From the NCBI GenBank assembly GCA_903970445.1, contig CAJCIP010000052.1, forward strand, positions 1 to 64,000: a stretch of 64,000 nucleotides of DNA, given 5' to 3'. Made by a program: the position numbers and the translations under genes. The notes beneath the pieces are model-generated. The model saw nothing but the letters and a program-made list of their open reading frames with translations, did not search any database and had not been told where the DNA came from. Position 1 is the stretch's first letter, and every line of letters starts with the position of its first letter. The DNA comes from Verrucomicrobia bacterium Tous-C9LFEB. GTDB taxonomy: Bacteria; Acidobacteriota; Terriglobia; Terriglobales; Acidobacteriaceae. Positions 26,458 through 60,323 of the stretch are shown in pieces.

Positions 26458-27283
26458 TTAAACCAAGTCTGTCCGATAACGCTGGTACTCTCAACGCAAT
26501 CAGGTCGCGCGTGTGGGATTGATTCGTGTCCCCAAGCGTGGGCAACGCGTCCTCATAGGTTGAGGCTGGAATGAGGGTCGGGGCGGTACCTGAACCAGGC
26601 GCAGGAGTTGTCCTCGCCGTCCGCCGTCAGAACGAAGGCTTTTGGGAGCAAGACAAGCAGGTGGGTGGCGTGCTCCTCATCGTCTTTGTGTGCGGCGTTC
26701 TCTGAGCGGAACTCGTCCGAGTGGGCAACCAAGCGCTGCATGCGGGCATTTTCGGCGCTGGCAGCTTGCGCGCTGAGAGGTTACCGTCAACAGCAAGCAG
26801 CCGTCGCAAGGGACCGCCGTCTGTTTCAACTAATTTTTGCCGCCATAGATGATTGCCGGTGCGAGTGGATCGTTCCCCTGAGACGAAACACTAGCGAGTT
26901 CCCTGCTGACAGGCCGTGACTTCGTTAGCTGCCATCGCCGCAACGGACGAGGGCACCTAGGCGACCAGCTTTGAGCCTGAAGCAGAACCGGCCAAAAGGC
27001 TAAAGCCTGGGATTGCTTGGGTGAAGACGAGGGTAAAGCGTGAACACACTCCGGCTCCTGCGTGCGAATACTGGTTAGACGCGTCCTGAGCGTAGAACCA
27101 AGGAATTAGGAGACGCTGAAGCCTTTGGCGGCGAGTCTCTTGTGCAAAACCTGATATCGACGTGACCAAAAGGTGTGACCTTGTGACTTGATTACTTACT
27201 TGGGTAATGCCGATAAGCAGACAGCAGAACAAGTCGCGGCCGCCCTCCGGCACATCAAGGCGTGACTTTCGGAATAAATCAGC
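26458..27283. other. 826-base region without a supported gene, ahead of the flagellar island
   Basis: Short open frames on both strands (for example 26553-26741 minus, 26608-26919 plus, 26957-27253 minus) show no recognisable domain, no good ribosome-binding site and no signal peptide. Nothing resembles transposase ends. Its right end carries a sigma28-like -10 word at 27209-27216. It may be decayed coding sequence or a control region for motAB. Confidence 0.5.
27209..27216 (+). promoter_or_regulatory. Possible sigma28 (FliA) promoter for motAB
   Basis: A perfect GCCGATAA -10 element lies 67 bases before the motA ATG. The expected TAAA/TGAA -35 word is not present at 15-16 bases (GATT/TGAT there), so support is partial. 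The same -10 word with a proper -35 precedes flgM and fliC in this window. Confidence 0.5.
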
Positions 27284-29572: not shown

Positions 29573-29695
29573 TTACGAGGGAGTAGTACTTGCCTCTAGA
29601 GTCCAAGAATCGAGTGAAAGCGCTCAGATTTCCGAGGTGACATGCTCAACCCCACCACAGTTCCCAACTCACTTCCGTTCACACAAGGATTGACT

Positions 29696-30421
29696 ATGTC
29701 ACAGGCCCCGCAGGCGATACCGGCAATCGGACGAATTCTGGTCGTAGAAGACGACGCTGCCTTGAGCCGGTTTCTTTCCCGCGAGCTGACCTTGAAAAAC
29801 TTTGCCGTGGATATCTGCCAGGATGGTGAAGAAGCGTTCCTTCGACTACAAAAGCGCACCTATGACCTGGTAATTCAGGATCTCAACTTGCCGAAGATGG
29901 ACGGTATGGAACTGCTGCGGCACACGCATGCAAATCGTCCGGACGTACCTGTTCTTGTCCTATCGGCACGTAACCGCACCGAAGACCTCGTCGACGCCCT
30001 TGAACAAGGAGCACACGACTATTTGAATAAGCCATTCTCCATGCTGGAGTTGATGGCCAGGATCCGCATGTTGCTGCGCCGGAGCGGACAAAGCCGCACT
30101 ACTTCTTCTGAGCCTGCGGCCAGTGTTTCTCCCAGTGCGCAGCTTTTCGTGGACAAGGAACAGAGACGTGTCGTTCGAGGCCATCGTCGCGTTGACCTAA
30201 CGCCCCGTGAATTTGCGCTTCTGCAGCACCTCATGGACAATGCCGGCAAGCCGGTTTCGCGGCAAACACTGATGCAGGAAGTCTGGAATGTTCCCTTCGA
30301 TCCAACGACGAACATCGTTGATGTGTACATGAAGTATCTTCGCGACAAGATCGATGTCGAAGGCGAGCCCAAACTGATCAGGACCGTTCGTGGCGTCGGC
30401 TACATCTACGGAAATGAATAG
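29696..30421 (+). CDS. OmpR/PhoB-family response regulator
   Basis: 241 residues from ATG at 29696 (AAGGA upstream); an in-frame ATG at 29642 with GAGGTGA is an alternative that adds 18 residues. The receiver domain has acidic Glu18-Asp19-Asp20, phospho-acceptor Asp62 in QDLNLPKMDG, Ser in LVLSARN and Lys in LNKPFS. The C-terminal winged helix (about 150-241) has DLTPREFALLQHLM and RTVRGVGYIYG. Overlaps the next gene, a kinase-like protein, by 8 bases. Probably controls motility or surface genes; direct targets unknown. Confidence 0.92.
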   Translation: MSQAPQAIPAIGRILVVEDDAALSRFLSRELTLKNFAVDICQDGEEAFLRLQKRTYDLVIQDLNLPKMDGMELLRHTHANRPDVPVLVLSARNRTEDLVDALEQGAHDYLNKPFSMLELMARIRMLLRRSGQSRTTSSEPAASVSPSAQLFVDKEQRRVVRGHRRVDLTPREFALLQHLMDNAGKPVSRQTLMQEVWNVPFDPTTNIVDVYMKYLRDKIDVEGEPKLIRTVRGVGYIYGNE

Positions 30422-31067: not shown

Positions 31068-31132
31068 TAGTTCCCTCTACAGTGCAAGCTGATCTTGCGC
31101 GCGAGAATGCGACAATTTGGACATTCATACGT

Positions 31133-32290
31133 ATGAGCAGCCTTCCTGTTTTCACAAGCCGTTCGACCGAAGCGACCACCATTGAAGTATTGATGGTAAG
31201 CCCAAGCGAGAGGCTGCGCGAGCAGCTGCGTGAGCGCCTAAGTGCCGAACGTTGGAACCTGAAAGAGGTTACGAGCGGTGCGGAAGCAATTGAGTTTTTG
31301 CACGAATATCCGTGCGAGATTCTCCTGGTTGATCCCGTACTTCCTGATCTGGAATTTACCGAATTCAGCGCAATGATCAGTCAGCGCTTCCCTGACGCAC
31401 AACTGCTCACGCTGAACGCTCAGACGGGTCATCTCTTGCTCGGTTCGACCTCGCCAACGGCGTTTTCAGCACAACTCGCTGACACGCTGCACGCCCCTTT
31501 CCATGCGCCTGTTCAATCAACTCCTGAACGTGGACGCAGCGCCGGGGCCACGCAAGGATTGCGTGGAATCGTTGGTGACTCTCCTGCCATGGAGCGGGTG
31601 TATGAATTGACGCACATGGTGGCAAACCGCGACACGACAGTGCTCATTACGGGCGCGAGTGGAACTGGCAAGGACTTGATCGCGCAGGCGATTCATTTGA
31701 TTAGCCCAAGACGCAAGCAGCCTTTCGTCGTCATCAATTGCGCTGCCATCCCGGAATCCCTACTCGAAGCAGAACTGTTCGGTTATACGAAGGGTTCGTT
31801 CACTGGTGCTGTGCAGGCGAGAACCGGTCGAATCCACGCGGCGCATGGAGGCACACTGTTCCTCGATGAAATCGGAGACATGCCACTTTCGTTGCAGAGC
31901 AAGATCCTTCGCTTTCTAGAACAGGGAGAGGTGCAGCGGATCGGTGGTAACGACAACCTGAAGGTTGATGTGCGGGTTGTCGCTGCAACCAATGCAGCGC
32001 TAGAAGAGGCCGTCAGGCAGAAGCTGTTCCGCGAAGATCTCTATTACCGCCTGGCAATTTTTCCTATACGTTTGCCGGCGTTGCGGGAGCGCCATGGTGA
32101 TGTCCCCAAGCTGGCACGGGCATTTGCCGAAAAGTTTTGCCCCGGAGTGGCTATCAGCTCAGCGGCACTTCATTTATTGGAGCAGCACGCTTGGCCTGGC
32201 AATGTGCGTGAACTGCGCAATGTTATGGAAAGGTGCAGCATTCTGATTGGGACTGAACGCGAAATATTGCCGCACCATGTGCTCATTTAG
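31133..32290 (+). CDS. Sigma54-dependent activator, FleQ-like, lacking a DNA-binding domain
   Basis: 385 residues from ATG at 31133 (GTG at 31082 possible). The N-terminal receiver-like domain is degenerate: SPSE replaces the acidic triad, though an Asp is kept in LLVDPVLPD. The AAA+ domain has Walker A GASGTGKD, the sigma54-contact loop as GSFTGA, Walker B GGTLFLDEIGDMP and REDLYYRL. The protein ends (PHHVLI) just after the AAA+ lid, with no Fis-type helix-turn-helix. It could act from solution or as a hetero-oligomer with the full-length FlgR-like activator encoded two genes downstream. Confidence 0.85.
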   Translation: MSSLPVFTSRSTEATTIEVLMVSPSERLREQLRERLSAERWNLKEVTSGAEAIEFLHEYPCEILLVDPVLPDLEFTEFSAMISQRFPDAQLLTLNAQTGHLLLGSTSPTAFSAQLADTLHAPFHAPVQSTPERGRSAGATQGLRGIVGDSPAMERVYELTHMVANRDTTVLITGASGTGKDLIAQAIHLISPRRKQPFVVINCAAIPESLLEAELFGYTKGSFTGAVQARTGRIHAAHGGTLFLDEIGDMPLSLQSKILRFLEQGEVQRIGGNDNLKVDVRVVAATNAALEEAVRQKLFREDLYYRLAIFPIRLPALRERHGDVPKLARAFAEKFCPGVAISSAALHLLEQHAWPGNVRELRNVMERCSILIGTEREILPHHVLI

Positions 32291-32333: not shown

Positions 32334-32389
32334 AACTAGGCAAGTTTGGCATCAGTCGTGCATTACATGTAGGCAGATGCTGCCTAGTT
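32334..32389. promoter_or_regulatory. Flagellar operator, site 1 (AACTAGGCA ... TGCCTAGTT)
   Basis: The 9-base half-site AACTAGGCA (32334-32342) and its exact inverse TGCCTAGTT (32381-32389) flank the sigma54 promoter. Within the right side, TAGGCA-gatgc-TGCCTA (32370-32386) forms a compact dyad. The identical half-sites recur before fliK at 41467-41514. The binding protein is most likely the Fis-type activator encoded at 33696-35117 (inference). Confidence 0.65.
32347..32362 (+). promoter_or_regulatory. Sigma54 promoter of the flgS-flgR-flgBC-fliE... operon
   Basis: TGGCATCAGTCGTGCA: GG (-24) and GC (-12) are 10 bases apart, with TGGCA and TGCA words kept. Expected transcription start near 32373, just before the kinase gene. 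Confidence 0.75.
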
Positions 32390-32406
32390 CTCATCAATCG
32401 CCAATC

Positions 32407-33696
32407 ATGAGCCCGTTGCAGGGTGCTGCCGACTTCGCGCAGCTCGCTTGGGACGGTGACACGGCGCCTTTGTCTAAGGAGCAAATCGCTCCCACAGGTA
32501 CAAGCGCACTCATGCTTGCGGAGGCGTTTGCCGACTTCGTTGCAACATCCTCGCGACTGGAAAACAGCTATCGCGAACTGCAGAGCGAAGTTGCAGCCCT
32601 CCACGAAGAGCTCGGCAAGCGCAATGAAGATCTCAGACTTAGCTTCGCGGAAAACCAGCGGGTACGGTTCGCTTTACAGCAGGTTGTCGACTCGATGCCA
32701 TGCGGCGTTCTGGTTGCAAATGTAGCCGGTGAAATTTCCACAATCAACCCAGAGATGGCGAAGATGCTGGGCATTCCCGCTCTGCAGACGATCCGTACAC
32801 TAGAGAGCCTGAAGGCTCAGACAGGCTTTGAACTCAGTTCGCAGAACCTGGCAACGGAGCGCGATATTGAACGCGAGTGCCGTCTGCAAACGGCCGAAGG
32901 TGAGCGATGGTTGCAGGTTCGCGAGCGGTCGTTGAGCTCAGCCGATAAGTCCTCGGCTCAAACCATTTACATCGTGAGCGATATCACAGCAAACAAGCGT
33001 GCAGAGCGGGATCGTGAAGCGGCGCGCAACGCAACCGTGCTTGCTGAGATCACAACGATGCTCGCTCATGAAATTAGAAATCCCTTAGCGAGCCTGGAGC
33101 TTTTCGCAGAGCTGATTGAACAGGACGATGCACAGCGTCAGGAGTGGATCTCTAATCTGCGGGCCGGCATTCGTTCTCTCTCAGGAACCGTAAACAACGT
33201 TTTGAGCATGCACGACCCAGGCTCGCTACGACTCTCAGCGATCTCAGCAAAGCAGACCATCACGAATGCCGTTCGTTTTGTACAGCCGGTGGCGAACCAG
33301 GCTGGCGTGTCACTCAAGTGGGCGGCGAATGACCTCGACGCCGTCATCCTCGCGAACGAGAGTGCTTTACAGCAAGTCCTGCTGAACCTGATTCGCAACT
33401 CGATTCGCCACACACCATCGGGTGGTGCCGTGATCCTACAGCTTCAGCATGACGCCAATGGGTGCGTGACGATCAGTTGTTCGGATAGTGGATCGGGAAT
33501 TCGGCCTGATCAACTTCACAGACTTTTCGAGGCGGGCTTCAGCGGAAGCGGCGATACTCCTGGCCTCGGCTTGGCGGTATGCAGCCGCATCATGCAGCAG
33601 CATGGCGGTGCGATCACAGCCTCCAATGTTAGAGGTTCAGGCGCTCGCTTCCTTCTTTCCTTCCCTTGTCTTCAACAGGAGCATGCAACGGCGTGA
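32407..33696 (+). CDS. PAS-domain sensor histidine kinase of the flagellar sigma54 system (FlgS/FleS-like)
   Basis: 429 residues from ATG at 32407; an ATG at 32377 lies within the operator and almost at the predicted start of transcription. Soluble protein: a coiled coil (about 50-95), a PAS domain (about 95-200, VVDSMPCGVLVANVAGEI), a DHp with H-box LAHEIRNPLASLELF, and a catalytic domain with LLNLIRNSIRHT (N), CSDSGSGI (G1) and GLGLAVCSRIMQQHGG (G2). No membrane helices, so it senses a cytoplasmic or export-apparatus signal. One-base overlap with its response regulator. Confidence 0.88.
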   Translation: MSPLQGAADFAQLAWDGDTAPLSKEQIAPTGTSALMLAEAFADFVATSSRLENSYRELQSEVAALHEELGKRNEDLRLSFAENQRVRFALQQVVDSMPCGVLVANVAGEISTINPEMAKMLGIPALQTIRTLESLKAQTGFELSSQNLATERDIERECRLQTAEGERWLQVRERSLSSADKSSAQTIYIVSDITANKRAERDREAARNATVLAEITTMLAHEIRNPLASLELFAELIEQDDAQRQEWISNLRAGIRSLSGTVNNVLSMHDPGSLRLSAISAKQTITNAVRFVQPVANQAGVSLKWAANDLDAVILANESALQQVLLNLIRNSIRHTPSGGAVILQLQHDANGCVTISCSDSGSGIRPDQLHRLFEAGFSGSGDTPGLGLAVCSRIMQQHGGAITASNVRGSGARFLLSFPCLQQEHATA

Positions 33697-35117
33697 TGAC
33701 TGAAACCAAACATTATGACAATCCCTCCGTCCTGCTTGTCGATGACGAGCCCGGTCTGCGAACGGGCCTGAAAGCCAATTTCCTACGGCACGGCTGGCAG
33801 GTCGAAACGGCAGAGGGTGTTGCAGACGCTACTCGCATTCTCGCGAGAAAAGACTTCGATCTTGTGATCACCGATGTCCGGATGCGCGACGGTGATGGCT
33901 TTGAGGTCATGAAGCACGTACAAGAAGAGTCGCCGCGCACGGCGGTTATTCTTCTCACTGCCTTCGGCAATGTGGCTGACGCAGTCTCTTCGATGAAGAA
34001 TGGCGCCTGCGACTACCTCACAAAGCCGGTTCCCTTTGACCAGCTTCAGAGCGCAGTAACGCGCGTACTTGAACGGATGAGTTCACAGGAGCAAGTTGCT
34101 GGAGCTGTAGCTCTGAATAAGCCTGCCCCAATAACGATGCCGGAAGGCCTTGCCGGTATTGTCGGTCGGGCGCCGCAACTGCTTCAATCGCTGCAACGCG
34201 CACGCGCAGCGGCGAGCACCAATGCCGATGTCTTAGTGGAAGCTGAGAGCGGAACCGGAAAAGAGCTGCTCGCGAAATTCATTCATGAGTCCAGCAGCAG
34301 AAGCGGCAAGCCTTTTGTTGCGATCAACTGCGCTGCCGTACCGGAGAACCTGATCGAAAGCGAGCTATTCGGTCACGTCAAGGGTGCCTTCACCGGTGCG
34401 GAGACGACGAAGATTGGAAAGTTCGAAGCGGCAAACGGTGGAACTTTACTGCTGGATGAGATTGGCGAAATGCCTTTGAATCTTCAGCCGAAGCTGCTGC
34501 GAGTGCTGCAAGAACGGGAGTTCGAACGCCTTGGCGATACACGCTCCATCAAGGTAGATGTGCGCGTCATCGCCACGACGAACGCCTCGCTTGCTTCCAT
34601 GGTCGAAAGAGGGACATTCCGCGGGGATTTGTACTACCGCCTGAACGTGATCCCATTGACACTGCCACCACTGCGGGAACGTCGTGAAGACATTCCCGTC
34701 TTAGCGCAGTACTTTGCCGAATCCTTCGCTACAAACACCGGAAGCGCAGTCCCCTTCCTCGATCCTAGCTTTCTGCGAGAGATGCAGGAGCAGGAGTGGC
34801 CGGGCAACATCCGCGAGCTCGGCAACTTCATGCGCCGCGTTTTATCTCTGCGTGAAAACGACGTTATGGACGCCGCGGCATTCCGCAAAGAGTTCCGGCC
34901 ACATCCCAGGTCGCAGAGCTTCGCTCCAGCAACGTTCGCCGTCCCCACGGTGAAGGTTGGAGCAAGAATCTGCGATATCGAGAAAGCTCACCTTGAAAAC
35001 ACGCTGCAGCTTGCCGGCGGCAATCGAACACACGCGGCCGCGATGCTCGGCATCAGCTTGCGCACCGTTCGCAACAAGATCAAAGAATACGGACTTCCTC
35101 CAAGGAGCTACGCATGA
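33696..35117 (+). CDS. NtrC-type sigma54 activator of flagellar genes (FlgR/FleR-like)
   Basis: 473 residues. The receiver has acidic residues VDDE and phospho-acceptor Asp60 in VITDVRMRDGDG, with Lys in YLTKPVP. The AAA+ domain has GAFTGA (sigma54 contact), Walker B GGTLLLDEIGEMP and RGDLYYRL. A Fis-type helix-turn-helix ends the protein (LENTLQLAGGNRTHAAAMLGISLRTVRNKIKEYG). The Walker A motif reads AESGTGKE, with Ala183 in place of the usual first Gly. Cognate kinase just upstream; flgB start overlaps its stop by 4 bases. Confidence 0.92.
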   Translation: MTETKHYDNPSVLLVDDEPGLRTGLKANFLRHGWQVETAEGVADATRILARKDFDLVITDVRMRDGDGFEVMKHVQEESPRTAVILLTAFGNVADAVSSMKNGACDYLTKPVPFDQLQSAVTRVLERMSSQEQVAGAVALNKPAPITMPEGLAGIVGRAPQLLQSLQRARAAASTNADVLVEAESGTGKELLAKFIHESSSRSGKPFVAINCAAVPENLIESELFGHVKGAFTGAETTKIGKFEAANGGTLLLDEIGEMPLNLQPKLLRVLQEREFERLGDTRSIKVDVRVIATTNASLASMVERGTFRGDLYYRLNVIPLTLPPLRERREDIPVLAQYFAESFATNTGSAVPFLDPSFLREMQEQEWPGNIRELGNFMRRVLSLRENDVMDAAAFRKEFRPHPRSQSFAPATFAVPTVKVGARICDIEKAHLENTLQLAGGNRTHAAAMLGISLRTVRNKIKEYGLPPRSYA

Positions 35118-35497
35118 GTGCACCGATAAATATGCTCGCGGCATTAGAAAGTTACGTGAGCTTGTCCAGTACGCGGGAGCAAACCATTACGGCCAACATG
35201 GCGAATGTTGATACGCCCGGCTACCACGCGCGGGATATCGATTTCGATCACGAACTGAAGCGAGCGCTGAACGCGAGCATGAGCAATACGAGCTTGGATG
35301 GTGCCGGTGCGGAACTCAGGCCTGCGACGCTCGAGGTAAAAGGTTTGATGGAGCGCCCTGACGGGAACAACGTGGACCTCGATCGTGAGGGCATGATGCT
35401 TGCGCAAGCGCAGCTACAACACCAAATGGGTATCGCTCTGCTGAAGAGCCATTTCCATGGTCTCCTGAGTGCAATCAGCGGTGGAGGAGGCAACTAG
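35114..35497 (+). CDS. flgB: Flagellar proximal rod protein FlgB
   Basis: 127 residues. The N-terminal rod signature is NMANVDTPGYHARDIDF, followed by NNVDLDREGMMLAQAQLQHQMGIALLKSHF, typical of FlgB. It forms the innermost rod with FlgC and FliE, exported by the flagellar type III system. ATGA overlap with the activator gene puts rod synthesis directly behind the regulatory genes. Confidence 0.94.
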   Translation: MSAPINMLAALESYVSLSSTREQTITANMANVDTPGYHARDIDFDHELKRALNASMSNTSLDGAGAELRPATLEVKGLMERPDGNNVDLDREGMMLAQAQLQHQMGIALLKSHFHGLLSAISGGGGN

Positions 35498-35499
35498 TC

Positions 35500-35940
35500 A
35501 TGAAAATATTTGACGCTCTTGCAGTCAGCGCTTCCGCACTTTCGGCCGAACGCCAGCGCGCGGAGATCATCGCGGCAAATATGGCCAATGCGGAGACAAC
35601 TCACACCCAGGCTGGTGGTCCATTTCACCGGCGCGAAGTCGTGTTCAGCTCCGCGAGTCCGTTCAAGTTCGCTTTGGCCAGCGCCGGAGGAATCGACACA
35701 CCGCCTGCGGGAATGGTTCAGATTTCGCAGGTAGTCGATGACCCCACGCCGCCCGTGATGAAGTATGAGCCCGGTCATCCGGACGCCGACAAAGACGGGT
35801 ACGTGGCCTACCCGGCAATCAATCCCGCGACAGAGATGGTTGACCTCATGGGTTCGGTTCGCGCCTATCAGTTGAACGCGTCTGCGGTGAGCGCGACCAA
35901 GCAAATGATCCAGCAGTCGATCGACATTCTGAAGAGCTAA
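35500..35940 (+). CDS. flgC: Flagellar proximal rod protein FlgC
   Basis: 146 residues. N-terminal heptad region ALAVSASALSAERQRAEIIAANMANAET, a middle with YVAYPAINPATEMVDLM, and a C-terminal helix SVRAYQLNASAVSATKQMIQQSIDILKS that packs in the rod. Two bases after flgB, same transcript. Confidence 0.94.
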   Translation: MKIFDALAVSASALSAERQRAEIIAANMANAETTHTQAGGPFHRREVVFSSASPFKFALASAGGIDTPPAGMVQISQVVDDPTPPVMKYEPGHPDADKDGYVAYPAINPATEMVDLMGSVRAYQLNASAVSATKQMIQQSIDILKS

Positions 35941-35952
35941 ACGAGGACGAGC

Positions 35953-36261
35953 ATGAGCATGAGCTTGATCAATACGAACTTCGGGGCAATCGGTTCGCTG
36001 AACCTGCCTGACATTTCTAAGCCTGCTGCAGCGGATAGCAGTGAAGGCTTCGGCGATGTGCTGAAGAATGCGATCTCCAACGTGAACCAGTTGAGTGGTG
36101 GCGCTGATCAACAGGTCGGCAGCTTGCTCCAGGGCGGTAAGGGAGACATGAGCTCAGTGATGGTGGCGGTCGAGAAAGCCGACGTCGCCTTCCAGCTGAT
36201 GATGCAGGTGCGCAACAAAATCGTCAGCGCCTACCAAGACATAGAGAAGATGCAGTTCTAG
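35953..36261 (+). CDS. fliE: Flagellar hook-basal body complex protein FliE
   Basis: 102 residues. The C-terminal two-thirds match FliE: SEGFGDVLKNAISNVNQL, SSVMVAVEKADVAFQLMMQVRNKIVSAYQDI and MQF as the end. It joins the MS ring to the rod. GAGGA precedes the ATG. Confidence 0.92.
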   Translation: MSMSLINTNFGAIGSLNLPDISKPAAADSSEGFGDVLKNAISNVNQLSGGADQQVGSLLQGGKGDMSSVMVAVEKADVAFQLMMQVRNKIVSAYQDIEKMQF

Positions 36262-36302
36262 CAGCGAACACGAAATCTACCCCGCCGACCAGGACCCAAT
36301 AA

Positions 36303-37934
36303 ATGGCAGCAGCAGCAAACACCGAACTCGCAGTACGCGCCCCGGCCGCGGGAGCGGCGCCTGTTTTCATAAAGATGAAGGCGTTCTGGGGCACGCGGAA
36401 CAATACGCAGCGGATCTATCTTGGTTTGGGGGCAGGTATCGTTCTTGCAGCGATAGCCTTCTTTTCCCACACCATGGCATCGCCTGAGTACAAGCCGGTG
36501 ATGTCCGGTCTTGAGGCAGCGGACGCGCAAGCATTAGGTTCGCAGCTCGCGGCAAAAAAGATTCCGTTCACCGTAAGTCCAGATGGAACATCAATCAATG
36601 TCCCTGCGGACCAGGTGGATGCAGCACGCATGGAACTTGCGTCTCACGACTCTCCGCATAGCGGGCGCATTGGTTTCGAAATTTTCGATAAGGTTTCCTG
36701 GGGTGAAACCGAGTTCGACGAAAAAGTGAATTATCAGCGTGCGCTGGAGGGCGAGCTCGAACGCACTATACAAACGATGAGCAACGTGAAAAGCGCACGG
36801 GTTCATCTTGTGATGGCGAACGAATCTGTCTTTGTTGACCGGGACCGGCCGGCCAAAGCTTCCGTGACGTTGCGGCTCAGGCGCGGGGAATTATCGAAAG
36901 ATGAAGCAGCCGCGATCACCAGGCTGGTAGCAGGCGCAGTTGATAACTTGAAGCCCGAAGATGTCGCTCTCGTGGATGCCGATTCCAACAAGTCGCTTAC
37001 TTCAAGCGGTGTGACGAACCAATCCGGAACTGAAGCCGAGCAGGAAATGAGCAAGCGGCTGGTAAGCACCTTGGCTCCAATCGTGGGAGCCGATGGCGTC
37101 CACGCCACGGTGAACGTCGATTACGACAACACAAGTAGCGAAGAGAATCAGGATAAGTACGATCCTGCCGTCAGTGTTCCGCTGAACATGCAGCGTACCG
37201 AAGAGGTCGCATCAGCTGGCGGAGCCGAGACTGGTGGCATCCCCGGAACATCCAGCAATCTACCGAATCCGCAGAAGACCAAGGACAAAGATGCAGCGCC
37301 GGCTGCGCAACCTGGACAAACTTCTAAGACAGAAAGCGCGACGTACGGCGTCAATCGAACCACGCTTCGTGTGATCTCTCCTGGTGGACGCATTCATCGC
37401 GTGACCGCCGCGGTGCTCGTGGACGACGTTGTGGATCGTCACCAGGAGAAAGGCAAGTGGGTGGAGACACGCCACAAGCGCTCGGCCGATGAGATGAAGC
37501 TTATTACGGAGCTCGCGCAGGCCGCGATTGGGTTCGATACCGCGCGTGGTGATGTTATCAGCGTTCAGAACCTGACATTTAGCCATCCCGAAGCACAAGA
37601 GCTGCCCGCTCCTACCCTGGTGGAAAAAGCACAAAAAGGTCTGAAAGACAACTCCTCTCTTGTGCGATATGGAATGCTGGGAGGCGCGTTACTCTTCGTG
37701 TATCTGCTGATGATTCGCCCGATTCAGAAGCGCGTGCTAGCGATGCCGGATTATGTGGCGTCTCCTGCACAGCTTACCGCGGCGAGTGTTGACATTGGCC
37801 CGTTGCCCACTACCTCAGAAGACTTGGCGCTTCGCTCCCTGGCTTTAAAGAAACAGCTCGCCGACTTCGTCCGCAAAGAGCCGGAAAATAGTGCCACCAC
37901 AGTCCGCGCGTGGCTACGCGAGGAGGCTCAATGA
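36303..37934 (+). CDS. fliF: Flagellar MS-ring protein FliF
   Basis: 543 residues. A first membrane helix (about 40-58, IYLGLGAGIVLAAIAFF) is followed by the ring-building motifs YKPVMSGLEAADAQALGSQLAAKKIPF, GFEIFDKVSWGETEFDEKVNYQRALEGELERTI and ARVHLVMANESVFVDRDRPAKASV. A long variable loop and TYGVNRTTLRVISPGGRI come next, then a second helix (about 457-474). The cytoplasmic tail binds FliG. It is the platform of the basal body in the inner membrane. Confidence 0.95.
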   Translation: MAAAANTELAVRAPAAGAAPVFIKMKAFWGTRNNTQRIYLGLGAGIVLAAIAFFSHTMASPEYKPVMSGLEAADAQALGSQLAAKKIPFTVSPDGTSINVPADQVDAARMELASHDSPHSGRIGFEIFDKVSWGETEFDEKVNYQRALEGELERTIQTMSNVKSARVHLVMANESVFVDRDRPAKASVTLRLRRGELSKDEAAAITRLVAGAVDNLKPEDVALVDADSNKSLTSSGVTNQSGTEAEQEMSKRLVSTLAPIVGADGVHATVNVDYDNTSSEENQDKYDPAVSVPLNMQRTEEVASAGGAETGGIPGTSSNLPNPQKTKDKDAAPAAQPGQTSKTESATYGVNRTTLRVISPGGRIHRVTAAVLVDDVVDRHQEKGKWVETRHKRSADEMKLITELAQAAIGFDTARGDVISVQNLTFSHPEAQELPAPTLVEKAQKGLKDNSSLVRYGMLGGALLFVYLLMIRPIQKRVLAMPDYVASPAQLTAASVDIGPLPTTSEDLALRSLALKKQLADFVRKEPENSATTVRAWLREEAQ

Positions 37935-38950
37935 CGGAGCAGCAGGACGTATCCAAGCTCAGTGGCACCCGTAAGGCGGCGATCTTACTTTCCGTGTTGG
38001 ATGAAGACTCAGCCGCCAGCATCTTTCGCAGCTTGAATAAAGAGGACTTGCACCGCGTCGCGGACGAGGTTGCTCATCTCGGCAAAATTCCCGTTCACAT
38101 ATCGCTACAAGTTATCGAAGAATACCAGCAGATGATTGTGGCTCAAGAGTATCTCGCTCTCGGCGGTCGCGACCTTGCACGCCGTCTTCTCGTGAAAGCG
38201 ATTGGCGCTGAAGAATCCGACAGCATCTTGCAGAAGCTGACAAAAGCCAGTGAGATGAGCCCAGTTGAGTCGTTGCGGCGAGCCGATCCACAGAAGCTGG
38301 CGCGCTTTCTGGAAGGTGAACATCCACAGACAGTGGCGTTGATCCTCGGGCAGCTGGGCGAACGCCAGGCCTCAGCACTACTTACGGTGCTCCCGGCGGC
38401 CATACGGGCCGATGCAGTGAAACGCCTGGCTGCTTTGCGCAAGTTTTCGCCCGAGATGGCGGAGAAGGTGTCCGTGCTGATCAGCCGCAGGTTAAAGGCC
38501 GTCGGCGAACAAGGAAAACGGACCTACTCCGGCTTCCAAAGCGTCGCCGACATCATGAATTGCGTGGACACCTCGGTTGCGCAAGAGATTCTCGAAAATA
38601 TCGAGCACGAAGAGCCCTCACTTGCGATTAGCATCCGCGATTTGATGTTCACATTCAACGATCTGCTTGAAGTCGATGAAACACAGATCCGTGAACTTAT
38701 GGGCGCGGTCGACAAGAAAGTGTTGGCAACGGCGCTGAAGGGCACGTCAGAAGACTTGAAGAACCATATCTTCCGCACGATGTCCTCGCGTGCGGTCGAA
38801 ATGCTGAAGGAAGATGTCGATTCGCTCGGACCGGTTCGCAGCAAGGAAGTGTTGAAGGCGCAATCGGAAATCGTCGCGCTTGCCCGCAAGCTAGAGGCGG
38901 AAGGCAAGATGATTCTGAAGAGAGAAGGAAGTGATGACTTTGTTGTCTAA
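37931..38950 (+). CDS. fliG: Flagellar motor switch protein FliG
   Basis: 339 residues from the ATG that overlaps the fliF stop (ATGA). N-domain LSGTRKAAILLSVLDEDSAASIFRSL, the middle EHPQTVALILGQL motif, and a C-terminal torque domain with FTFNDLLEVDETQIRELMGAVDK, LKNHIFRTMSSRAVEMLKEDVDSLGPVRSKEV. The charged torque helix contacts MotA. Overlaps fliH at its end. Confidence 0.96.
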   Translation: MTEQQDVSKLSGTRKAAILLSVLDEDSAASIFRSLNKEDLHRVADEVAHLGKIPVHISLQVIEEYQQMIVAQEYLALGGRDLARRLLVKAIGAEESDSILQKLTKASEMSPVESLRRADPQKLARFLEGEHPQTVALILGQLGERQASALLTVLPAAIRADAVKRLAALRKFSPEMAEKVSVLISRRLKAVGEQGKRTYSGFQSVADIMNCVDTSVAQEILENIEHEEPSLAISIRDLMFTFNDLLEVDETQIRELMGAVDKKVLATALKGTSEDLKNHIFRTMSSRAVEMLKEDVDSLGPVRSKEVLKAQSEIVALARKLEAEGKMILKREGSDDFVV

Positions 38951-39614
38951 TGCGAACGAAATGAGTGAAGCGATTCTTCCGATCAGCGCTTTCTCCTACA
39001 GGAATGTGGGCCATCACTTCGCCGAAGCTCCCGGACACGAAAGCAAGACAGCGCAATCTGCTGAAAAAGGAAAATCGTCGACGAAAGAAATTACACAGCA
39101 GGAAGTTGATTGGCTGGTTCAAGCCGCACGCACCGAAGCTGCCGCTGAAACCCGAGCAAAGATGCAAGCCGAGATGGAAGCCAAGGTAGCTGCCGAAGCT
39201 CAAAAAACGTGTAGCGCCCTTGAATCGTTCCAAGCCGAACAGAGGAAATATTTCAGCAAGGTTGAGACAGAGGTTGTACAACTTTCACTGGCGATTGCTG
39301 CTCGCATTCTTCATCGTGAATCACAGGTGGATCCGATGCTCGTGGCGGGCCTTGTACGCGTCGCCATTGAGAAACTCAACAACGGGTCCAGCGTAACCGT
39401 TCGCATCCCGCCCGCGGACGGCGCGACATGGCGCCAACGCCTCATGGGGCTTGAATCTGCCTACCGGATAAGCGTGGTTGAAGATGCTCAGCTGGGACCG
39501 ACTGACTGCTTGCTCGAAACGGAGCTGGGATCGGCTGACTTCAGCGTGGAGGCTCAGCTCAAAGAAGTGGAGCGCGGATTCTTCGACCTTCTAGCCCTAA
39601 GGCCACAGAGCTGA
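38934..39614 (+). CDS. fliH: Flagellar export ATPase regulator FliH
   Basis: 226 residues from ATG at 38934 (a GTG directly before it is possible), with AAGGAA upstream. The N-terminal ~60 residues are variable, then a charged, Ala/Glu-rich coiled coil (about 55-105), and a C-terminal domain with VVQLSLAIAARILHRESQVDPMLVAGLVRVAIEKL and TDCLLETELGSADFSVEAQL, as in FliH/V-ATPase E-type stalks. It holds FliI at the export gate. Overlaps fliG by 17 bases; fliI starts at its last base. Confidence 0.9.
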   Translation: MTLLSNANEMSEAILPISAFSYRNVGHHFAEAPGHESKTAQSAEKGKSSTKEITQQEVDWLVQAARTEAAAETRAKMQAEMEAKVAAEAQKTCSALESFQAEQRKYFSKVETEVVQLSLAIAARILHRESQVDPMLVAGLVRVAIEKLNNGSSVTVRIPPADGATWRQRLMGLESAYRISVVEDAQLGPTDCLLETELGSADFSVEAQLKEVERGFFDLLALRPQS

Positions 39615-40924
39615 TGAGCCCCTCCGGCAATCTTGCCCCATACTTCAATCAGTTGGAGCAGTCGTCCACTCTGCTCTGGCGCGGACGCGTTTCCCAAGTT
39701 GTTGGGAACCTCATTGAATCGGACGGACCGTTTTGTTCCATTGGCGAAAGCTGCGAGATTGTCAGCTCGAAAGGCAGCACGTATTCCGCCGAAGTCATTG
39801 GATTTCGCGGAGCGAAAATGCTATCGATGGCGCTTGAACCGCCGCAGGGCATACGATTCGGTGACATGGTGGCAGCGCGGGGAAGCAGGCCGTCCATTCG
39901 TGTTGGTGACGAGTTGTTGGGGCGAGTCATAGACGCCACCGGCTGTCCTCTGGATGATCTTGGTGACTATCGCGCCGCGCACATCATGCCGATTGATGGT
40001 TCTGCACCCTTGCCGCTTGATCGAGTCCCCATACGCGAACCTATGGGCTGTGGAGTAAGAGCGCTCGACGCTTTTGTAACCTGCGGGCGGGGCCAGCGCA
40101 TCGGAATTTTTGGCGGCAGCGGTGTTGGCAAGAGCACGCTGCTTGGAATGATGCTTCGCGGAACAAGCGCCGATGTTACCGTTCTCGCTCTGGTGGGAGA
40201 GCGCGGCCGTGAAGTGGGCGAATTCCTAGAAGTCATTGGTGAAGAAGGCCGTAAGCGCTGTGTCGTTGTTGTGTCTACTTCTGACCAATCGCCGCTTCTT
40301 CGCATGCGTGCAGCGCTTGCCGCAACATCAATCGCAGAGCATTTTGCGAGCGAGGGCAAGAACGTCTTGCTGGTTGTCGATTCTCTCACCCGGTACGCCA
40401 TGGCACAGCGGGAGATTGGACTGTCTGCCGGCGAACCACCCACCGCAAAGGGCTACACGCCCTCAGTCTTGAACAAACTAGCGGGACTTGTAGAACGTGC
40501 AGGATGTTTTAAGCGCGGTAGTATCACGGCTTTCTACACGGTGCTGATGGAAGGTGACGACCAGCAGGACCCCGTCGTTGATACTGTGCGTTCCCTACTG
40601 GACGGGCATGTCATTCTCGATCGGAATCTAGCGATGAAGAATCACTATCCACCAATTGCCGTGCTGGATAGTCTCAGCCGTTTGATGTCGAGTGTTGCTT
40701 CCCGCGAGCACTTGGACAAAGCGAAGGGTCTCAGGCGTCTGCTAGCCGCGTATTCGCGGTCAGAAGACTTGATTCGAATTGGCGCCTACCAGAAGGGCTC
40801 GGATCCGCTACTTGACCGTGCGGTCGACGTGCTCCCACAGATCAATAACTTCCTCAATCAGTCACCAGAAGATCGCTCACAGTTCCCTGCGGCTGTGCAG
40901 TCTTTGCTGATGATTCCGAGCTGA
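39614..40924 (+). CDS. fliI: Flagellum-specific ATP synthase FliI
   Basis: 436 residues, F1-beta-like ATPase of flagellar export. Walker A is GGSGVGKST at 167-175. Further signatures are ALVGERGREVGEFLE (catalytic Glu region), VLLVVDSLTRYAMAQREIGL (Walker B), PPTAKGYTPSVL, and the substrate-specificity segment ending DHVILD-like DGHVILDRNLA. It uses ATP to unfold and feed export substrates with FliH and FliJ. Confidence 0.96.
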   Translation: MSPSGNLAPYFNQLEQSSTLLWRGRVSQVVGNLIESDGPFCSIGESCEIVSSKGSTYSAEVIGFRGAKMLSMALEPPQGIRFGDMVAARGSRPSIRVGDELLGRVIDATGCPLDDLGDYRAAHIMPIDGSAPLPLDRVPIREPMGCGVRALDAFVTCGRGQRIGIFGGSGVGKSTLLGMMLRGTSADVTVLALVGERGREVGEFLEVIGEEGRKRCVVVVSTSDQSPLLRMRAALAATSIAEHFASEGKNVLLVVDSLTRYAMAQREIGLSAGEPPTAKGYTPSVLNKLAGLVERAGCFKRGSITAFYTVLMEGDDQQDPVVDTVRSLLDGHVILDRNLAMKNHYPPIAVLDSLSRLMSSVASREHLDKAKGLRRLLAAYSRSEDLIRIGAYQKGSDPLLDRAVDVLPQINNFLNQSPEDRSQFPAAVQSLLMIPS

Positions 40925-40925
40925 T

Positions 40926-41360
40926 ATGGCATTCAAGTTCCCGTTGGCAACGGTGCTGCAGGTGCGGCAGATTCGCGAAGACCGCGAAGAAAGAATGCTG
41001 CAGCAGATTCAATTCGAAATTAACCAGGCGAAGAGCGTGTTAGAGCAGGTAGATGCGGCTCTTGAGCGGTCCAACCTCGGGCGGCGCGACGTTCTTTTCC
41101 AACACCAGGAAGGCAGGGATGTCCACGGTTCGTACGGTGAATTAGCCGCATTGAAGCAGAATCGAAGTGAGATAGTAGCGCACCTAGAAAAACTCGATGG
41201 ATTGCGCCTGCGACAGGTCAAAGTCCTGGAGTCTGCTCGGGTCGATCGAGAGATGCTGACGGATATGAAATCGGATCAGCTCGAAGCGTATAAATCGTTT
41301 GAATTAAAACGCGAACAGAAGGCTCTCGATGACAATTTCGGCGCAAGGTTCGGCCGCTAA
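40926..41360 (+). CDS. fliJ: Flagellar export protein FliJ
   Basis: 144 residues, nearly all alpha-helical coiled coil beginning FKFPLATVLQVRQIREDREERMLQQIQFE, the typical FliJ start. It is the central stalk that links FliI to FlhA and recycles chaperones. One base after fliI, and followed 25 bases later by a clear terminator, so it ends the first flagellar operon. Confidence 0.9.
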   Translation: MAFKFPLATVLQVRQIREDREERMLQQIQFEINQAKSVLEQVDAALERSNLGRRDVLFQHQEGRDVHGSYGELAALKQNRSEIVAHLEKLDGLRLRQVKVLESARVDREMLTDMKSDQLEAYKSFELKREQKALDDNFGARFGR

Positions 41361-41385
41361 ATAGCGCTGTATGGTTGTTCCACGG

Positions 41386-41418
41386 AGGCACTCGATCACT
41401 TCGAGTGCCTTTCTTCTT
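41386..41418 (+). terminator. Rho-independent terminator after fliJ
   Basis: A perfect 10-bp stem AGGCACTCGA (41386-41395) / TCGAGTGCCT (41401-41410), 5-base loop, then TTCTTCTT. Confidence 0.88.
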
Positions 41419-41466
41419 CACCGGAACCTTGTGCTGGTACACCTACATTCTTCGGAGATGAACGGC

Positions 41467-41514
41467 AACTAGGCACAGGTTGACCGGGCACGGCAGGGCA
41501 ACACTTGCCTAGTT
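41467..41514. promoter_or_regulatory. Flagellar operator, site 2, upstream of fliK
   Basis: AACTAGGCA (41467-41475) and TGCCTAGTT (41506-41514), identical to the half-sites at 32334/32381. The inner dyad is GGCA-acact-TGCC (41497-41509), again with a 5-base centre. It lies ~90-140 bases before the two sigma54 elements, the normal distance for an upstream activator site. Confidence 0.7.
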
Positions 41515-41604: not shown

Positions 41605-41620
41605 TGGCATGCAGCGTGCT
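41605..41620 (+). promoter_or_regulatory. Sigma54 promoter P1 before fliK
   Basis: TGGCATGCAGCGTGCT: GG and GC exactly 10 bases apart, close to the element at 32347. Predicted transcription start about 41631. Confidence 0.75.
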
Positions 41621-41627
41621 TTATCAC

Positions 41628-41643
41628 TGGCATGATCGCTGCA
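41628..41643 (+). promoter_or_regulatory. Possible second sigma54 promoter P2 before fliK
   Basis: TGGCATGATCGCTGCA also has the GG-N10-GC spacing, 23 bases after P1. It overlaps the first in-frame ATG of fliK, so if used, fliK must start further downstream. Confidence 0.55.
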
Positions 41644-45155: not shown

Positions 45156-45289
45156 TGCGTGTGTTTGCTTCTCATGGCGCGCTCATACCCTGCAGGGACT
45201 TCGCGCACGAACCGTCCCTATCGGCGGAATGGCTCGTTTTGTTCAGTGTTTTCGCGAAAGATATTTTCCGCATACGGACCAATCACGAT

Positions 45290-45318: not shown

Positions 45319-45335
45319 TAGGCAGCTGAGATGCC
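45319..45335. promoter_or_regulatory. Weak operator-like dyad downstream of the 45290 promoter
   Basis: TAGGCA-N7-TGCC resembles the compact dyad of sites 1 and 2 (N5 there) and, like site 1, sits just after the predicted transcription start. The wider spacing makes this tentative. Confidence 0.3.
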
Positions 45336-49732: not shown

Positions 49733-51813
49733 CTCAGATAGCAGCCTTCTTCCGAAAATTCGGTGAGTGGATCGCACCGATCTCCGCAGTGGCGACAGTG
49801 CTGGTGATGCTCGTGCCGATGCCCAGCTTCCTGCTGGATCTTCTGCTGACCGTCAGCATAACGGCTTCCATCTTAGTGCTGCTGACGGCGATCCAGATTC
49901 TTCGGCCAACCCAATTTTCTGTGTTCCCGAGCCTTATCCTTCTGCTCACGCTTCTTCGTCTCGCGCTCGATCTTGCGAGCACGCGCCGCATTCTTCTGCA
50001 TGGAAACGAAGGCACCGGAGCAGCCGGTGCCGTTATTGAAGCCTTTGGACAGTTTGTCGTAGGCGGCAACTACATCGTTGGTTTTGTTCTCTTCCTTGCC
50101 CTTGTCGCTATCCAGTTTCTCGTCATCAGTCACGGCGCCGTGCGAACAGCGGAGGTGACGGCGCGTTTCACGTTGGACGCAATGCCCGGCAAGCAAATGG
50201 CAATCGATGCCGATTTGAACGCGGGCCTGATCAATGAGGCCCAGGCGAAAGCGCGGCGTGAAAGAGTGGCTCAGGAAGCTGAGTTCTGCGGTGCGATGGA
50301 TGGCGCGGCTCGCTTCAGCCAACGCGATTCGATGGCCACCATTCTCATCATGGCGATCAACATCATCGCAGGGTTCCTGATTGGCGTTTTCCAACAGGGC
50401 ATGGCTTTCCAGGATGCCCTGAAGACGTACACGATCCTCACTGTTGGTGATGGACTCGTTTCAATCCTGCCTTCCCTGCTGGTATCTGTGGCGGGTGGCA
50501 TTGTTGTTACTCGCGCGGCTTCCAAGGAAACTCTAGGCGTCAACGTCGGTAAGCAGCTTTTCATCAGCCCTCGCATCCTGTGGATCGCGGGTGGCGTGCT
50601 TGTTGTTCTCGGCCTCATTCCTGGGCTCCCCAAGATCGCCTTCTTTTCCATCGCCGGCGTGCTCATGTTCGCGGCCAAGAAGATGAAGCCCGAAGTTGAT
50701 CGCGACGAAATGGACGAGTTCAGCACTTCAACGAAGCCTGCGGTCGCTGGAGCAGCGCTTGCGGGCGCGCCGGTGGTCGATCCGATGGATGCTGTGCTCC
50801 GCCTGGATGAGCTGATGCTGGAGGTTGGCATAGGACTTGTACCGCTGGTGGATGCGCAGCAGGGTGGGCAATTGCTCACCCGCGTGAAATCGATGCGCAA
50901 GAGCCTTGCCCAGCACCTTGGCTTCCTCGTTCCATCGATTCATATCACCGATAATCTCGCACTGCGTGACCGTGAGTATGTCATCTACATGCGAGGTGTT
51001 GAGATCGCTCGCTGGGAAATTCGTAAGGATAGCCTTTTAGCGATTTGCTCCGATGTTAATGCGCCGGAACTACCCGGCCAGGCGACCCGAGAACCTGCTT
51101 TCGACATGGCTGCAACTTGGATTTCTCCGCAGAATCAGGGCCAAGCGATCGCATCGGGGTACGCTGTCATCGACCCGACATCCGTCCTCTCCGCACACCT
51201 TTCTGAAGTCATCAAGCAGAATGCGCATGAGCTGTTGTCACGCCAGGAAACAAAACGCCTGATCGATCGCATGAATGAGTCACATCCCAAGCTCGCGGAT
51301 GAATTGATTCCAAAGATCATGACGCTCGGCGAAGTGCAGAAAATCCTGCAAGCGCTTCTGCGCGAACAGGTTTCGATCCGTGATCTGGGAACCATTCTCG
51401 AGGTGCTGGTCGATGCTGCTGCCTTCAACAAAAACCCAATCGCTCTCGTAGAGGCTGTGCGCCATGCACTCGGAAGATCCCTGGTGCGTCCGCTGCTCAC
51501 TGACGGTGGCGAGTTGAAGGTCGTGACACTCGACACGTCGATTGAAGAAGAGTGCACTCGCGGATCCAACATGCAAGGTGGCCAGGGATTGTCCACACCG
51601 CATCAGCTTGCTTTGGCACGTCGCGTGCTTGATGGATTACGTACTAACTTTGGTCAGGAAATTAGCAAGGCGCCCCCTGTGCTGCTTTGCTCGTCACCCG
51701 GACGTTTCTATCTGCGCAGGCTGCTGGAACCATTTATTCCGAAGATTGTGGTGATCTCCCCGGGCGAAATTCCGCCGATGACACAGGTTCAATCAGTCGG
51801 AGTTCTGCACTAA
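49729..51813 (+). CDS. flhA: Flagellar export gate protein FlhA
   Basis: 694 residues from a TTG that overlaps the flhB stop, with AGGAG eight bases upstream. Seven to eight membrane helices to about 320. The FHIPEP signature region contains ARFTLDAMPGKQMAIDADLNAGLI and the charged GAMDGAARFSQRDSMATI. The large cytoplasmic domain includes DPTSVLSAHLSEVIKQNAHELLSRQETKRLIDRM and a C-terminal chaperone-docking part. Forms the nonameric export gate with the FliPQR channel. flhF and flhG, commonly next, are not here. Confidence 0.96.
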   Translation: MTQIAAFFRKFGEWIAPISAVATVLVMLVPMPSFLLDLLLTVSITASILVLLTAIQILRPTQFSVFPSLILLLTLLRLALDLASTRRILLHGNEGTGAAGAVIEAFGQFVVGGNYIVGFVLFLALVAIQFLVISHGAVRTAEVTARFTLDAMPGKQMAIDADLNAGLINEAQAKARRERVAQEAEFCGAMDGAARFSQRDSMATILIMAINIIAGFLIGVFQQGMAFQDALKTYTILTVGDGLVSILPSLLVSVAGGIVVTRAASKETLGVNVGKQLFISPRILWIAGGVLVVLGLIPGLPKIAFFSIAGVLMFAAKKMKPEVDRDEMDEFSTSTKPAVAGAALAGAPVVDPMDAVLRLDELMLEVGIGLVPLVDAQQGGQLLTRVKSMRKSLAQHLGFLVPSIHITDNLALRDREYVIYMRGVEIARWEIRKDSLLAICSDVNAPELPGQATREPAFDMAATWISPQNQGQAIASGYAVIDPTSVLSAHLSEVIKQNAHELLSRQETKRLIDRMNESHPKLADELIPKIMTLGEVQKILQALLREQVSIRDLGTILEVLVDAAAFNKNPIALVEAVRHALGRSLVRPLLTDGGELKVVTLDTSIEEECTRGSNMQGGQGLSTPHQLALARRVLDGLRTNFGQEISKAPPVLLCSSPGRFYLRRLLEPFIPKIVVISPGEIPPMTQVQSVGVLH

Positions 51814-55657: not shown

Positions 55658-55813
55658 GATGACGCTTCAGGCAAGAGACAAGTTCGCCTGGTTTGCTCAA
55701 GATGAGCACTCGCGCTCTCATCGCTTTCTCATATGAGCGACTTCGTCTTCTGAAAGCTCGCAGCAACTTAGCTAAAGCAAAGAAAACACTAGCGGACTAA
55801 TCTGAATTTCAAA

Positions 55814-60296: not shown

Positions 60297-60323
60297 TAAA
60301 CGCTGGGCAATATCTGCCGATAA
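60297..60323 (+). promoter_or_regulatory. Sigma28 (FliA) promoter of flgM
   Basis: TAAA (60297-60300), exactly 15 bases, GCCGATAA (60316-60323): a full match to the FliA consensus, 27 bases before the flgM ATG. Confidence 0.88.

Follow-up and report, generated by a model that had tools for sequence, protein, structure and literature searches.

A FlbD-type dyad at the flgS and fliK promoters of an Acidobacteriaceae flagellar cluster, a candidate operator for FlgR

The flagellar gene cluster of Verrucomicrobia bacterium Tous-C9LFEB (placed by GTDB in the Acidobacteriaceae; GenBank assembly GCA_903970445.1) carries the inverted repeat GGCA-N5-TGCC at two putative sigma-54 promoters: those of the operons flgS-flgR-flgBC-fliEFGHIJ and fliK-flgD-flgE. 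The stretch analysed, hereafter the window, comprises positions 1 to 64,000 of contig CAJCIP010000052.1. Both sites are conserved in related species, the flgS site at a near-fixed distance from its promoter, and the start of flgS is constrained as DNA. By analogy with FlbD and its ftr sites in Caulobacter crescentus, we consider it fairly probable that FlgR, encoded in the first of these operons, uses the FlbD/ftr-type dyads to activate the hook operon at fliK and to limit its own flgS operon.

The inner dyad and the outer repeat

A first-pass annotation, made from the letters alone, had proposed that a 9-base inverted repeat, AACTAGGCA and TGCCTAGTT, serves as a shared operator at the two promoters. 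Its four arms are present base for base at 32334/32381 and 41467/41506, and its judgement that chance is an unlikely source holds as well: the window has four copies where 0.30 are expected, none of 100 shuffles had four, and the whole genome (3.68 Mb) has ten copies of the 9-mer, four of them in these two sites. The inner dyad GGCA-N5-TGCC that it described is found at 32372 and 41497, and the promoters stand relative to the sites as it had placed them (TGGCATCAGTCGTGCA at 32347 and TGGCATGCAGCGTGCT at 41605, one mismatch each). The outer repeat as operator unit had to be given up: the spaced pair of arms occurs in only one of 101 genomes searched, namely its own, and the left arm at flgS (32334) has a near copy, AACTAGGTA, in one of nine orthologues from the same genus. 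At fliK the arms are the left half of a first dyad (41472) and the right half of a second (41497), so that what looks like an inverted repeat there is made up of the outer half-sites of a tandem pair of dyads. The idea of a shared operator thus survives as the inner dyad, which is kept in many related species when the orthologous flgS and fliK upstream regions are compared, and falls as the 9-base repeat, for want of conservation in its left arm at flgS. The pattern TGCC-N5-TGGCA, also tried, was the wrong motif and uninformative.

The spacing of the dyad is specific. Across 29 loci (588 kb) GGCA-N5-TGCC has 59 sites, against 8 to 24 for each other spacer from N0 to N12, and the 11 other half-sites made from the same letters reach a top count of 40. 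Forty-eight of the 59 could be placed: 19 at flgS, 26 at fliK, two in divergent positions ~700 bp from flgS, and one at flgF of Granulicella; the remaining 11 lie elsewhere, a number close to the 15.6 that the other spacers average. A scan of the whole window for sigma-54-like sites gave 79 matches against 67 expected, with as many in 8 of 100 shuffles; since this is not above chance, the promoters are recognised by position and conservation.

Several further copies were considered and set aside. In the window, the dyad at 60306 upstream of flgM was not found in six relatives, that at 50199 lies inside flhA, and TAGGCA at 45319, after the fliN promoter, was not seen in relatives; a match in Azospirillum is not flagellar. 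A third genomic copy, GGCA-N5-TGCCTAGTT (C11 109554-109570; L001 1501-1518), ~70 bp upstream of a diguanylate cyclase (GGDEF) gene, is absent from the stretches covered at five orthologues, a poor test in that the flagellar locus of four of these five genomes is without a FlgR bearing a helix-turn-helix (HTH). By our estimate, chance alone would give roughly one match of this kind per genome, and the reversed control gave one in this genome.

The flgS element: a dyad over the start codon

A flgS gene was found in ten of the 28 genomes of the genus, the present one included, and in all ten the element TAGG[CT]A-RATGY-TGCC-YRST-TCTCAT follows the sigma-54 promoter, with the half-site GGCA in eight and GGTA in two. 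The ATG of flgS sits in the dyad spacer, and codons 2 to 6 read L-P-x-S-H. A matrix made from relatives only gives the window's site at 32372 a score of 29.8 bits, compared with a best of 16.3 in 100 randomised windows (first-order Markov samples). A search for FlgS in 150 genomes of the family yielded 15 further loci, six of which have the element at the start codon. A strict pattern (which fixes TTCTCAT and hence is no test of that motif) was matched 23 times in 22 of 398 family genomes, ten of them the genus genomes already known, and its reversed control not at all. Twenty-two of these matches are at flgS; the other (in genome G166) precedes a fliM-like gene, with which it is out of frame. 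From the GG of the promoter to the dyad the distance is 24 bases in 18 of the 23 matches, 23 in three, and 34 or 35 in two; these last amount to a shift of about one helical turn, and one of them has a second GG 40 bases before its dyad. In Granulicella the flgS dyad is degenerate and CTCAT-N6-CCAAT is kept.

The codons at the start of the gene are the clearest sign of constraint on the DNA itself. Among 65 invariant residues with degenerate codons in 16 FlgS genes, only S5 (TCT) and H6 (CAT) use a single codon, in genes whose starts were located by a pattern containing TCTCAT (matched by all ten genus genes; the six family genes are those of the 15 with this start). Because these two codons are fixed and the copy before the fliM-like gene is out of frame, the start of flgS is, to judge from these comparisons, held at the DNA level beyond what the protein demands.

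Two loci (L118 at 3452 and L247 at 1402) carry a second flgS-type dyad ~700 bp upstream of flgS and facing away from it; that of L118, in genome G166, precedes the fliM-like gene.

The fliK element: tandem dyads

The two fliK dyads of the window, the first imperfect and the second perfect, are 25 bp apart. In other genera all ten usable fliK loci have two perfect dyads 21-26 bp apart, with a sigma-54-like site ~115-155 bp downstream of them; six of seven loci from the window's genus and Granulicella have one perfect dyad. At least one perfect fliK dyad is found in 16 of 17 usable FlgR-bearing loci, a count in which twelve extra stretches had been picked for their flgS element, their fliK sites alone being an independent test. 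The fliK gene itself was matched downstream in eight of the ten other-genus loci; in L244 and L248 the stretch ends ~1.3 kb past fliJ, with an open frame of fliK-like make-up in place of the match. Excluded from the count were L041 and L242, with no fliJ in the stretch, L251, and L036, L042 and L044, where neither a fliK match after fliJ nor a dyad directly there was found (L042 has a dyad 502 bases on).

By promoter position, the flgS and fliK transcripts would begin within ~4 bases of an ATG (32373-32377 and 41631-41632), and may thus both lack a leader. The TTG listed as the start of fliK (41593) precedes the fliK promoter and is probably wrong.

FlgR, FlgS and A1

The locus runs from an OmpR-type regulator (29642) through a weak kinase-like open reading frame (30390) and A1 (31082) to flgS, flgR, flgB, flgC, fliE to fliJ, fliK, flgD, flgE, fliN and fliO; fliE, fliH and fliJ were assigned by position and from relatives. 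As expected of a two-component system, the kinase gene adjoins that of a receiver-AAA+ regulator in a flagellar operon, followed by flgB. The Fis-type activator at 33696-35117, which the first-pass annotation had singled out as the best candidate binder, retains that place: the dyad is the published FlbD-type motif, the recognition helix is nearly invariant, and the protein's own gene lies in the operon concerned. Ten orthologues share an almost unchanged tail, GNRTHAAxMLGISLRT..RN.I.EYGLPPR, the other nine being 62-68% identical to the window's FlgR overall, and in all ten the receiver residues D16, D17, D60, T88 and K110 are invariant. The nearest solved structures are NtrC-family proteins. 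A contig search with FlgR gave one near relative, L137 (53% identity), the others being distant NtrC-type genes; in the 6.2 kb of L137, which also have no flgS start, the dyad was not found. By sequence, the operator is of FlbD type and the protein is called FlgR rather than FlbD, because it scores below the NCBIfam cut-off for FlbD and higher against AtoC and NtrC, and keeps the receiver residues.

Neither in the window nor in the relatives with A1 examined does this protein extend past the lid domain, so that an assembly error is hardly a likely cause of the truncation. Of the six loci L045-L050, which are without an HTH-bearing FlgR, five have a single activator that likewise stops after the lid (the stretch covered of L045 gave no match), and no activator other than this A1-like protein was matched before flgB in those five.

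In the circuit that we propose, TAGGCA-N5-TGCCTA would serve as the operator, and FlgR, once phosphorylated, would bind it with its Fis-type HTH. The flgS operon would be transcribed from its sigma-54 promoter, probably fired by the HTH-less A1 from solution. Once the basal body is ready, FlgS would phosphorylate FlgR, whose dimers would occupy the tandem dyads centred ~128 and ~153 bp upstream of the predicted fliK start; the FlgR AAA+ oligomer would then loop to the sigma-54 polymerase and switch on fliK-flgD-flgE. At flgS, where a lone dyad spans the predicted start site and the start codon, FlgR would limit its own operon, fliF included. More tentatively, and as a possibility that we would not yet call probable, the Acidobacteriaceae may have a two-activator switch: A1 would fire the early operon without an enhancer; FlgR, on a compound operator (the ftr dyad plus a CTCAT box, over promoter start, start codon and first flgS codons), would shut that operon and open the hook operon from the tandem dyads; CTCAT-N6-CTCAT would mark the export and rod operons; and the coding sequence of the kinase would be fixed as operator DNA across genera.

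Comparison with known systems

Known systems are compared here as they are presented in excerpts of the literature. The motifs given for FlbD and for DVU1063 of Desulfovibrio vulgaris are CCCGGCAxxxxxTGCCGGG and GGCAxxxxTGCC, respectively (PMC3333781). Caulobacter FlbD keeps class II fliF repressed and switches on middle and late genes, class III fliK among them (PMC3930126, PMC3096577). GGCA-N5-TGCC stands at flagellar sigma-54 genes in both organisms, and here too the flgS operon includes fliF and the next operon begins with fliK. Activation at fliK with self-limitation at flgS would thus be the division that FlbD makes at the ftr sites. The systems differ in that FlbD, which lacks a cognate kinase and is not controlled by phosphorylation, relies on FliX, whereas FlgR keeps its receiver residues and has an adjacent kinase gene, and in that the repression-type site here overlies a sigma-54 promoter and start codon. 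DVU1063, a FlbD homologue, has a motif of this kind at flagellar genes; it belongs to another phylum, its spacer is printed as N4, its receiver is atypical and it has many non-flagellar targets (PMC3333781). The arrangement here resembles FlrBC of Vibrio cholerae, FleSR of Pseudomonas aeruginosa and FlgSR of Campylobacter jejuni, in which a cytoplasmic kinase and a sigma-54 regulator together set the timing of rod and hook genes (PMC7064773, PMC6504787). FlgR of C. jejuni and Helicobacter pylori dispenses with DNA binding, unlike the role proposed for FlgR here. The H. pylori protein is the closer parallel to A1 and illustrates that activators without a DNA-binding domain can act from solution; A1 differs in that its locus also encodes another regulator, one that bears an HTH. 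The kind of operator is therefore already known; new are its occurrence in this phylum, its position across a start codon and the pairing with an activator that has no HTH. In the open-access literature (most subscription journals lie outside this scope) we found no flagellar enhancer site or FlbD-type control reported for Acidobacteriota.

Weighing the readings

Several observations count against activation at fliK combined with self-limitation at flgS. Among the 15 further family flgS loci, three have GGCA-N5-TGCC directly upstream of the -24 element, and in six no perfect dyad was found near the start in the stretch read. At fliK, L043 has imperfect dyads only, and in L251 no dyad was found in the 243 bases covered past fliJ. 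The fliK matrix gives the non-conserved dyad before flgM 18.2 bits, level with the fliK site; with this and one randomised window at 20.6 bits, the fliK sites are unproven by score alone. The relatives in all conservation counts are not independent events. FlgR reaches 371 bits with the FlbD model NF050807 (cut-off 750), less than with AtoC (428) or NtrC (403), both of these also below their own cut-offs. No dyad was found in L045-L050 (105 kb), the six flagellar loci where a FlgR with an HTH is missing, against ~2.8 expected by chance (P ~0.06); this absence lends weak support to the pairing of FlgR with the dyad.

The most serious competitor, although we think it unlikely, is that FlgR binds and activates at both sites, the flgS dyad being a downstream or overlapping enhancer in a positive autoregulatory loop. 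Its precedent is V. cholerae FlrC, whose sites, in the excerpts available, typically lie downstream of the start, unlike the fliK dyads here, and still act as enhancers; a flgS site near the start could activate in the same way, and the near-fixed helical phase between dyad and promoter would suit contact with polymerase. Against it, the three family loci just mentioned have their dyad directly upstream of -24, the tandem array stands at fliK and not at flgS, and the flgS dyad is centred at about +6 of the predicted start. That position lies under the polymerase footprint. Binding by another protein, either a further NtrC-type regulator or the OmpR-type regulator at 29642, seems improbable to us. 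Three other genes of this genome match the FlbD model (on C55, C62 and C12), the OmpR-type gene is nearby, and co-occurrence of FlgR and dyad is weak evidence by itself; yet FlgR is encoded in the very operon that carries the site, A1 has no HTH, and OmpR-type proteins favour direct repeats.

We give still less credence to a role in the messenger RNA (mRNA), where translation would be controlled by a hairpin at the 5' end whose loop holds the AUG. The predicted start at the dyad and the AUG in the spacer of the flgS elements would fit such a hairpin, but the dyads of fliK and of Granulicella flgF are upstream of the promoter and outside the transcript, TAGGCA faces TGCCCG in eight of 21 aligned elements (an A-C mismatch), and two species have the dyad about one helical turn further downstream. 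That the match reflects chance or coding constraint we regard as barely conceivable: the MLPxSH start of FlgS is indeed conserved as protein, yet this explanation is already contradicted by the fixed TCT and CAT among 63 other invariant residues that vary in codon, by the out-of-frame recurrence before fliM, and by the non-coding fliK dyads.

A second element and neighbouring features

A direct repeat, CTCAT-N6-CTCAT, occurs six times in the genome (reversed control two), twice in the window (Table 1); around the other four sites no flagellar gene was recognised among the open reading frames, for which no family search was made. The repeat is found once, at fliN, in all five genus relatives with the fliN region covered and an HTH-bearing FlgR, and at flgS in L036, L251 and L252; at flgF one of six relatives has it exactly and others have near forms. 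At fliN it was not found in the other-genus loci, and Granulicella has it there on the other strand. With its 11-bp period it has the direct-repeat form of a PhoB/OmpR-type box, and the PhoB box of Escherichia coli, in the excerpt consulted, consists of two 7-bp repeats with a 4-bp spacer (PMC3333781). Because of this period the repeat would suit an OmpR/PhoB-type protein, a candidate being that encoded at 29642-30421. Directly after this gene, the open reading frame 30390-31067 matches a histidine kinase weakly (BaeS-like, 29 bits) and may be a decayed partner kinase.

The motif GCCGATAA, which we take to resemble the -10 of sigma-28 promoters, occurs at 27183, 32288, 60290 and 63467, upstream of motA, flgS, flgM and a flagellin-like gene at the window end, and also before the diguanylate cyclase gene on C11 (L001 near 1455). 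The strong terminator-like hairpin that separates fliJ from the control region of fliK is absent from the list given by a pattern-based terminator scan.

Table 1. Positions of the regulatory elements and regulator genes in the window
Feature	Position	Strand	Basis or remark
A1, sigma-54 activator (AAA+) without HTH; proposed activator of the flgS promoter	31082..32290	+	ends after lid domain
Outer left arm AACTAGGCA at flgS	32334..32342	+	lineage-specific half-site or coincidence
Sigma-54 promoter of flgS operon (GG-N10-GC)	32347..32362	+	near-fixed dyad spacing in relatives
Dyad TAGGCA-GATGC-TGCCTA over predicted start site and flgS ATG (32377)	32370..32386	+	conservation; 29.8 bits
flgS, PAS-containing histidine kinase	32377..33696	+	PAS-HisKA-HATPase
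TTCTCAT and CTCAT-N6-CCAAT abutting dyad, inside flgS codons 4-10	32388..32405	+	conservation, codon test
flgR, activator; proposed dyad binder	33696..35117	+	receiver-AAA+-HTH_8
Terminator-like hairpin between fliJ and fliK control region	41384..41412	+	-19.8 kcal/mol, z -5.7
Imperfect first fliK dyad GGCA-CAGGT-TGAC	41472..41484	+	14.1 bits; randomised windows reach 13.5 on average
Perfect second fliK dyad GGCA-ACACT-TGCC	41497..41509	+	18.6 bits; maximum 20.6 in 100 randomised windows
Sigma-54 promoter of fliK-flgD-flgE	41605..41620	+	position and conservation
CTCAT-N6-CTCAT at fliN/fliO, 119 bp ahead of the putative sigma-54 promoter	45171..45186	+	
CTCAT-N6-CTCAT at flgF, 97 bp ahead of a putative sigma-54 promoter	55717..55732	+	

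Implications

The sites offer a testable wiring for the order of flagellar assembly in Acidobacteriota. They suggest that the logic of FlbD, by which a single regulator, acting at the same site, closes an early operon and opens the hook operon, may extend beyond the bacteria in which it was worked out, and the flgS element is a clear case of operator DNA dictating the choice of codons at the start of a gene.

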